This document shows, piece after piece, positions 22,043-24,321 of a stretch of 64,000 bases of DNA; the stretch's first letter is position 1; every line of letters starts with the position of its first letter. Origin of the DNA: Sulfurimonas sp. (GTDB lineage: Bacteria > Campylobacterota > Campylobacteria > Campylobacterales > Sulfurimonadaceae); the NCBI RefSeq assembly GCF_029027585.1, contig NZ_CP093397.1:2097405-2161404 (forward strand). The letters run 5' to 3'. The translations under genes were made by a program, and so were the position numbers. Below the pieces are notes generated by a model. It ran no database searches and was not told the DNA's origin. It was given only the letters and a program-made list of their open reading frames with translations.

Positions 22043-22790
22043 ATTATCTAAAAAAATAATGTCAAAACTTGGCAAAACAAATGCTGAGTTTGAGTTGATA
22101 GAAGAGGGCGATAAAATATTAGTCGGACTTAGCGGAGGTAAAGATTCACTTACTATGATTCATGCTATGAGAGAACAGCAACGCCGTGCTCCCTTTAAGT
22201 TTGATTTTATTGCAGTGACTATTAGTTATGGCATGGGTGAAAATTATGATGACTTGAGTACACATTGTAAAAAATATGATATTGAGCATATTGTAATCGA
22301 TACAAAAGTTTATGAATTAGCAAAAGAAAAAATAAGAAAAAACTCTTCATTTTGTAGCTTCTTTTCTAGAATGCGTAGAGGATATTTATATACTGCAGCG
22401 CAAGATAAAGGCTGTAATAAAGTAGCTATAGGTCATCACTTGGATGATGCGTGTGAGAGTTTTTTTATGAATTTTATTTATAATGGGCAGATGCGAAGTC
22501 TTGCTCCAAAATATAAGGCTGAAAATGGTTTGATAGTTATTCGTCCTCTTATCGGGATGCGTGAGCGCCAACTTAAAGCTTTTGTAGATGATAATAATCT
22601 AAATGCTATTGGTGATGAAGCTTGTCCTGCTATGCGCTTTGATGTAAAGATGCCACATGCTCGTGCTAATATGAAAAAAATGTTAGCTAAAATGGAAGAA
22701 GAATTCCCTCAACTTTTCACTAATCTAAATGCAGCATTTAAAAATATATCAGTTGATAGTTTTTTTGATAAAGAGAAGTTTTCACTTTAA
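22023..22790 (+). CDS. TtcA-like PP-loop ATPase with incomplete cluster-cysteine motifs
   Basis: The 255-residue protein has the PP-loop LSGGKDS (36-42), RMRRGYLY and GHHLDDACESFFMN, matching the TtcA tRNA 2-thiocytidine family. TtcA binds an iron-sulfur cluster with cysteines from two CxxC motifs; here these read C111-S-F-F and C201-P-A-M, so the second Cys of each is missing. It may use an open-site cluster or another chemistry. The start is uncertain: TTG 22023 overlaps mtnN; TTG 22032 and ATG 22059 are alternatives, but family alignment favours including residues before ATG 22059. Confidence 0.78.
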   Translation: MTSLSIKLSKKIMSKLGKTNAEFELIEEGDKILVGLSGGKDSLTMIHAMREQQRRAPFKFDFIAVTISYGMGENYDDLSTHCKKYDIEHIVIDTKVYELAKEKIRKNSSFCSFFSRMRRGYLYTAAQDKGCNKVAIGHHLDDACESFFMNFIYNGQMRSLAPKYKAENGLIVIRPLIGMRERQLKAFVDDNNLNAIGDEACPAMRFDVKMPHARANMKKMLAKMEEEFPQLFTNLNAAFKNISVDSFFDKEKFSL

Positions 22791-23277
22791 TACCTACAGT
22801 CTAAATTCTCTTCATCTTTTTCAATCTGTGTTTTTTTATTTTGAAGAGTTTCTTCTTTGATTTTGGATAAAAATTCAATAATATTATGTTGATAATGCAG
22901 AGTATCTTTATCATGAGTTAAAGCGATGATTGGCTTTAAAGATTCTACATCTATTTTTTTAGCATATCTTGGTATGATTTTTAACTCTTTTTGAATACTT
23001 GAAACTAAAGTATCGATATCTAAGCCATTATTATCTTTAACTTTTTTACTAACTCTTTTGTAGAGAGCATAAGTAAATTTACCCTATCTTCATCATTTTT
23101 ATATATTTGTAAACCAATACTTTTTACGGCTACATAACTCTCTACAGTAGAATCATTATTTGAAGCTATAATAAGTGCAAATATTTTAGCACGAAACTCA
23201 AGTGAACCATGATGATGAACAAAAAATTCACGAAAAGCACTAAAAAAATAGTGTTTTAGTCTAAAACTAAGTCGCAT
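22787..23277 (-). pseudogene. Unknown conserved-looking protein, frame interrupted at a slippery A run
   Basis: The first frame runs from ATG 23277 to 23020 (85 aa), and the -1 frame continues smoothly to TAA at 22787, giving about 163 residues in all (length 3n+2). The switch point is A AAA AAG at 23041-23047, exactly in phase (codons 78-79). The N-terminal part is basic and aromatic (RLKHYFFSAFREFFV); the C-terminal part is charged and helical. I do not recognise the family. Its stop overlaps the ttcA-like stop tail to tail. Either one A has been lost, a sequencing error is present, or ribosomes shift frame. Confidence 0.6.
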
Positions 23278-23291
23278 TTAAATCCTTAATC

Positions 23292-23559
23292 TAAGTTACA
23301 GACCATAAATAACTTCATACTCAATGAGAAGAGAAGCTATAAGATACAAGGCGAAAGTTCGCATGAGCTACTAGTAGCTTAAAGAGCTTTTAACGAAGTA
23401 GATTGTAGCTTCTCTTCTCACCCGAAGGGCAACATTTAAAAGATTTATCTTCCGCGTTAAACTTACTTTAACGATACTCGTATCGCCAAAGAAAGTTTGC
23501 CTTGAACCTAAACCTTTTAAATGTTGTTGAGAATGAAGTTATTTATGGTCTGTAACTTA
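23292..23559. repeat. 268-bp palindromic element with 27-bp perfect terminal inverted repeats
   Basis: The termini 23292-23318 and 23533-23559 are perfect 27-bp inverted repeats, extended inward by CTCAA/TTGAG after one mismatch. Inside are two long hairpins: 15 bp perfect (23325-23339/23406-23420) and 13 bp perfect (23430-23442/23514-23526). Each contains smaller hairpins (23351-23362, 14-bp palindrome 23366-23379, 23455-23473, 23459-23469/23488-23498, 23472-23485). The ends are TAAG...CTTA, compatible with a TA target duplication. No gene of useful length lies inside. It fills most of the 333-bp gap between the divergent genes at 23277 and 23611. It is likely a MITE-like or REP/BIME-like element, or a highly structured RNA. 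Confidence 0.75.
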
Positions 23560-23610: not shown

Positions 23611-24321
23611 ATGGGTAGAGCCTTTGAGTACAGAAAAGCATCAAAATTAAAGAGATGGGGTGCAATGTCAAAGTTGTTTCCAAAGTTAGGAAAGATTATT
23701 ACGATGGCGGCAAAAGAGGGTAGTAGTGACCCAGATATGAATTCAAAGCTTCGTACTGCTATTATAAATGCAAAATCAGAAAATATGCCAAAAGATAATA
23801 TTGAAGCAGCGATAAAAAGAGCATCTGCAAAAGATACAGCATCTATGCTTGAAGTAAATTATGAATGTAAGGCTCCTCATGGTGTTTTGATTTTTGTAGA
23901 ATCAATGACTGATAATAATACTAGAACAGTTGCTAATGTTAAAAATATCATTACAAAAAGAGGTGGAGAACTTCTTACTAATGGCTCTTTAGAATTTATG
24001 TTTGATAGAAAAGCACTAATAGAGTTTAAACTAACTGATGAAATGGACATAGAAGAACTAGAGTTAGAACTGATAGATGCTGGATTACAAGAGATAGAAG
24101 AAGAAGATGGAGTATGTTTTGTGACAGCAGATTATACAAGCTTTGGAACACTTAATTTAGCTCTTGAAGATATGAAGATAGAGATAACAAAGGCTAATTT
24201 AGAGAGAATGGCAAATGCCCCTATATCTATATCTGAGCAACAACAAGTTGAGATTGATAAAATTTTAGAAAAACTTGAAGATGACGAAGATGTTCAAAAG
24301 GTTTTTACAAATATAGAGTAA
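23611..24321 (+). CDS. yebC: YebC/TACO1-family protein
   Basis: The 237-residue protein begins MGRAFEYRKASKLKRWGAMSK and continues with AAKEGSSDPDMNSKLRTAI, typical of YebC. Family members have been described as DNA-binding regulators and, more recently, as factors that help ribosomes through proline stretches. The longest frame starts at 23521 inside the palindromic element, but ATG 23611 matches family N-termini and has AAGGA upstream, so it is preferred. Confidence 0.95.
   Translation: MGRAFEYRKASKLKRWGAMSKLFPKLGKIITMAAKEGSSDPDMNSKLRTAIINAKSENMPKDNIEAAIKRASAKDTASMLEVNYECKAPHGVLIFVESMTDNNTRTVANVKNIITKRGGELLTNGSLEFMFDRKALIEFKLTDEMDIEELELELIDAGLQEIEEEDGVCFVTADYTSFGTLNLALEDMKIEITKANLERMANAPISISEQQQVEIDKILEKLEDDEDVQKVFTNIE

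Follow-up and report, generated by a model that had tools for sequence, protein, structure and literature searches.

The 268-bp palindrome at positions 23292-23559 of the window (the whole 64,000-nucleotide stretch of Sulfurimonas DNA that was analysed) is a non-autonomous DNA transposon (MITE) of the IS630/Tc1-mariner type, with terminal inverted repeats, a TA duplication, no coding capacity and multiple copies. It is best read as an IS-mobilised MITE with a pair of single-strand hairpin sites able to work in either orientation, and the complete account, in which it belongs to a superfamily of such elements spread over the class Campylobacteria, is on balance probable. What is new is the combination of a conserved twin-arm core with the ends of different transposase families. 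The family is found in many Campylobacterota genera and is apparently undescribed: no Rfam family matched the element, and the open-licence papers searched contained no description of it in Sulfurimonas, Arcobacter or Epsilonproteobacteria.

The first-pass annotation of this DNA had pointed to a nested palindrome with perfect 27-bp ends, an interior of two long stems and no meaningful gene, and each of these features was found, the palindrome being far beyond chance expectation. The element (TAAG...CTTA) is closed by an outer stem in which the left terminal inverted repeat, an IS630-type transposon end (23292-23324, + strand), pairs with the right one (23527-23559, - strand) at 32 of 33 positions, the sole mismatch at position 28 leaving 27 bp perfect. 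Inside are two hairpins whose 23-nt bases are 87% complementary: arm 1 (23325-23420, + strand, core 23340-23407), with the internal-loop bases AAGGC at 23348-23352 and AACG at 23392-23395, and its mirror-image homologue arm 2 (23430-23526, - strand, core 23443-23511). They are separated by CCCGAAGGG, a central mini-hairpin CCC-GAA-GGG at 23421-23429. Folding, which had been proposed as a check, gave a DNA fold of -73.1 kcal/mol against -21.7 +/- 3.4 for shuffled sequences (z = -15), and 0 of 200 shuffles did as well. No long ORF was found within 23292-23559. The element occupies a divergent gap upstream of yebC (23611-24321, Pfam TACO1/YebC), in keeping with the position between divergent genes and beside the yebC promoter that had been assigned to it. 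Just to the left (22790-23277, - strand), ORFs of 98 and 85 aa overlap in different frames and look like one frameshifted gene, either a pseudogene or a sequence error.

Movement of the element into this gap left a trace in the flanking DNA. In the closest relative found (G058), the flanks upstream of yebC meet at a single TA, CCTTAATA-TA-ACTCTATATGG, and the same position in the window reads CCTTAATC-TA-[element]-TA-TCTCTATATGG, with the two TA copies at 23292-23293 and 23558-23559. The TA target and the single-TA empty site that the annotation had anticipated are thus both present, the empty-site support for the duplication coming from this one site (G058/L261). The yebC gap also lacks the element in other inspected relatives. 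Two relatives (L277 and L279) have a different short palindrome in this gap, CCAAATCCGC...GCGGATTTGG, with ends similar to the end type ATACCAAATCCG seen in L300.

A search of the host genome (2.6 Mb, one contig) and its relatives revealed a second copy, 97% identical, at G000:C1:919429-919695, along with two related elements with other ends near C1:1604180-1604450 and C1:2558160-2558450. Element matches occurred in 25 of 99 genomes, all of the host's own genus, and about 110 distinct copies were collected; phage and plasmid collections contained nothing similar. Most full copies keep a length of 264-275 bp, across genera. Five shortened copies of 165-183 bp (L031, L032, L058, L061 and L063, two of them in one genome) retain arm 1 and the centre and have lost arm 2. 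At L027:1215-1742, elements of end types D and B (see below) share a junction TA, one having inserted at the terminal TA of the other, and a type A element (L332, G038:C119) has inserted into the remnant of an IS630-family transposase. The earlier proposal of a MITE moved in trans is supported by the copies and the empty site, with the trans movement itself an inference; a single copy at a conserved position, with no transposase of matching ends, had been named as the pattern that would speak against that proposal, and it is not the pattern found.

The ends of these elements are modular. Four end types occur in the genus set, namely A (TAAGTTACAG, TAAGTAAGAG), B (TAAGTGCCTGAC), C (TAAGTACCT) and D (GGGCACCTCTAAAAACC), and at least five further types (ATACCAAAYCC, TRACTGACCTTACGCA, ATYACCGYACCAA, TAATAGACTTCTTGC and TTGAAYCCTCTGCACAATTACA) occur in the class and the host's own genome. 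A sister species carries an IS630-family element of 1065 bp, with an HTH and a DDE_3 domain, whose ends are like those of type B (27/30), and the left end of a 1126-bp IS630-family element in G133 is identical to a type C MITE end over 31 of 31 bp, a stretch about as long as the outer stem. For type D the matching ends belong to an IS5-like insertion sequence of ~1.26 kb that has DDE_Tnp_1/DUF772 domains; several type D copies have a 4-bp duplication (e.g. TTAA, ATAA) and others do not fit this pattern. By end sequence, types B and C share their ends with autonomous elements, and the type A ends in the window resemble these IS630-partnered types. The annotation had proposed looking for an insertion sequence with the same ends, which yielded the related ends of types B and C in sister-species insertion sequences and no exact partner for type A. 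The host genome lacks a DDE_3 transposase, and at present the element therefore probably cannot move there.

The identified partner insertion sequences contain no arms, and an origin by internal deletion of an arm-bearing insertion sequence is rejected on this ground. Solitary type A ends were seen in the host genome at G000:C1:2209335, 786847, 978846 and 2584193 (L012, L016, L119 and L120), with neither a second end nor a transposase nearby, and a check of solitary type A ends in that genome found no transposase between ends. Core-less palindromes of 47-60 bp made of two type B ends were also encountered (L135:672-718, L136:605-664 and L137:666-724).

The inner ~205 bp are conserved in architecture, with two homologous, mirror-imaged hairpin arms of ~95 bp around CCCNNNGGG. 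Each arm starts with a long variable base stem and an AGGC/AACG internal loop; a variable stem of 8 bp follows, and beyond another internal loop the arm ends in an apical stem. Among 37 arm cores, 94.3% of cells pair and 16 of 22 pairs have changed on both sides, with a covariation score of 0.52 as compared to 0.21 for shuffles and at most 0.17 for slid alignments. These 37 cores were chosen by a pattern that demands AGGC and AACG, and the invariance of the loop was therefore judged on arms taken without that demand, in which both motifs are nearly invariant, with arm 2 of type D as an exception. A covariance model of the arm found matches in 34 of 397 genomes and in 18 of the 68 sampled genera of the class Campylobacteria, often as inverted pairs ~100 bp apart, and the named records that bear the arm motif are mostly Sulfurimonas.

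The strand on which the arms are constrained can be approached through their imperfect pairs, which were counted strand-symmetrically from folds of both strands. G.T and A.C pairs are about equal in the whole element pooled (478:537), and on the + strand the two arms have opposite biases (197:78 in arm 1, 114:339 in arm 2), a result that leads to rejection of a one-strand RNA spanning the whole element. When 24 copies less than 80% identical were read from each end inward, the G.T:A.C counts were 65:21 for arm 1 and 79:36 for arm 2, and the outer stem lacked this bias (21:16); per copy, 20 of the 24 favoured G.T, none favoured A.C and 4 were tied. The bias is present at both A-T (99:28) and G-C (68:30) positions, which rules out C deamination as its only cause. 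Outside the genus the direction is the same and the effect weaker (50:32), and the column-level tests taken alone are modest (p = 0.01 for arm 1, p = 0.22 for arm 2). The end-inward excess of G.T argues that the constraint on each arm acts on a single strand, namely the one that reads 5' to 3' from the element's end on that side towards the centre, so that the two arms appear to be selected on opposite strands. Two other possibilities raised in the annotation, a large structured RNA on one strand and a REP/BIME-like element, do not fit this arrangement.

The constrained strand might act as RNA, with a transcript from either side meeting a sense arm first and the arm then binding a protein or altering the transcription or decay of the neighbouring mRNA. 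The end-inward bias could reflect G.U pairs, one of which is retained in 34 of the 37 arms; the near-invariant internal-loop bases are like those of protein-binding RNAs, and RNA roles have been proposed for MITE hairpins, e.g. for NEMIS transcripts and RNase III (PMC2229807). The gene context argues otherwise. Depending on the ORF cut-off, 34-40 of the intergenic copies are in divergent, 32-37 in tandem and 7-9 in convergent gaps, and thus ~47% lie upstream of both neighbouring genes, as compared to a background in which 31% of intergenic bases are divergent, 54% tandem and 15% convergent. Copies between tandem genes are oriented 23:14, with no clear bias, and these contexts together place many copies outside obvious mRNAs. 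Promoters and terminators are not above chance at the element; a terminator role was rejected, given the lack of a terminator-like site and the few convergent contexts. The absence of an Rfam match and the central triloop also count against RNA. In 81 of 98 copies this triloop has the sequence GNA or its complement, a type of loop that gives DNA mini-hairpins extra stability (PMC4686876), but these copies share ancestry and the count is therefore only a hint for DNA. Since G-U wobble is no less natural in RNA and the loop counts come from related copies, the choice between the two is weak: the evidence leans, not firmly, toward DNA, and action of the arms as RNA is considered rather unlikely.

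MITEs are usually viewed as deletion remnants of a single insertion sequence, with a meaningless interior. An ordinary MITE of this sort, in which template-switch correction or gene conversion alone keeps the palindromes perfect, would account for the symmetric covariation in the outer stem, and quasi-palindrome correction is a general process. This explanation is nonetheless improbable, leaving unaccounted for the near-invariant unpaired AGGC/AACG, the constant length across genera, the opposite G.T biases of the arms and the occurrence of the same core between the ends of different transposase families. With an interior that is conserved and ends that are exchanged, the interior probably does something, and the sequence comparisons suggest that the core itself has a function maintained by selection. 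The core could also have begun as a REPIN-like inverted pair of single-strand hairpins that a RAYT/Y1 (HUH) transposase recognised and that was later captured between IS ends. Such an inverted doublet of strand-specific hairpins is seen both here and in REPINs (PMC3116915), and Y1_Tnp genes are present in the host genome. However, no arms lie near twelve Y1_Tnp genes, four genomes with arms have no Y1_Tnp match (G150, G417, G031 and G132), and another four with Y1_Tnp have no arm found (G100, G101, G428 and G139, the last being absent from the arm-scan listing). With neither adjacency nor co-occurrence, the HUH/RAYT link is not supported, and this origin is highly improbable. An integron attC site, judged by the general features of such sites, was dropped because the two sides of the motif are not complementary.

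The IS-mobilised MITE with paired hairpin sites would move by cut and paste, using an IS630-type transposase supplied in trans. Its arms, more probably as DNA than as RNA, would fold into hairpins once their strand is exposed, e.g. in a cruciform or on the lagging-strand template when a fork arrives from that side, and a putative protein, belonging either to the host or to the mobility machinery, may bind the conserved internal loop. The mirror-imaging of the arms would offer a correctly oriented arm to a transcript or fork from either side, and the site could thus work in either insertion orientation. A further suggestion, tentative and somewhat doubtful as a whole, is that selection acts on the twin-arm core as a unit in its own right, a conserved single-strand device that would persist throughout the class by riding within the ends of any transposon family active at the time, and that has a dedicated, putative AGGC/AACG-loop protein. 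The element provides a concrete motif for studying MITE cargo function and transposon-end swapping in genera with cultured members, and a class-wide repeat family to be added to Campylobacterota annotation.

Several known repeats share some of these properties. RUP of Streptococcus pneumoniae, found with IS630-Spn1, is likewise an intergenic MITE with a TA target and IS630-family-like ends, but it is 107 bp long, whereas the Sulfurimonas element is ~270 bp and has a conserved twin-arm core and the ends of several transposase families (PMC2229807). The Correia/NEMIS elements of Neisseria are also TA-flanked MITEs with long stems near genes (PMC2229807), and the Sulfurimonas element differs from them in its two inner arms, strand-opposed constraint and conserved internal loop. 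REPINs, the RAYT-associated REP doublets, have two inverted single-strand hairpins with compensatory changes and a possible clover-like fold (PMC3116915), as does the present core, which is instead framed by IS630/IS5-type ends with target duplications and for which no RAYT link was found. The CIR elements of Caulobacter and Brucella share the arrangement of two hairpin arms and a linker, with a GANTC motif (PMC2229807), whereas the arms of the Sulfurimonas element are enclosed by an outer stem of transposon ends and have AGGC/AACG as their motif.
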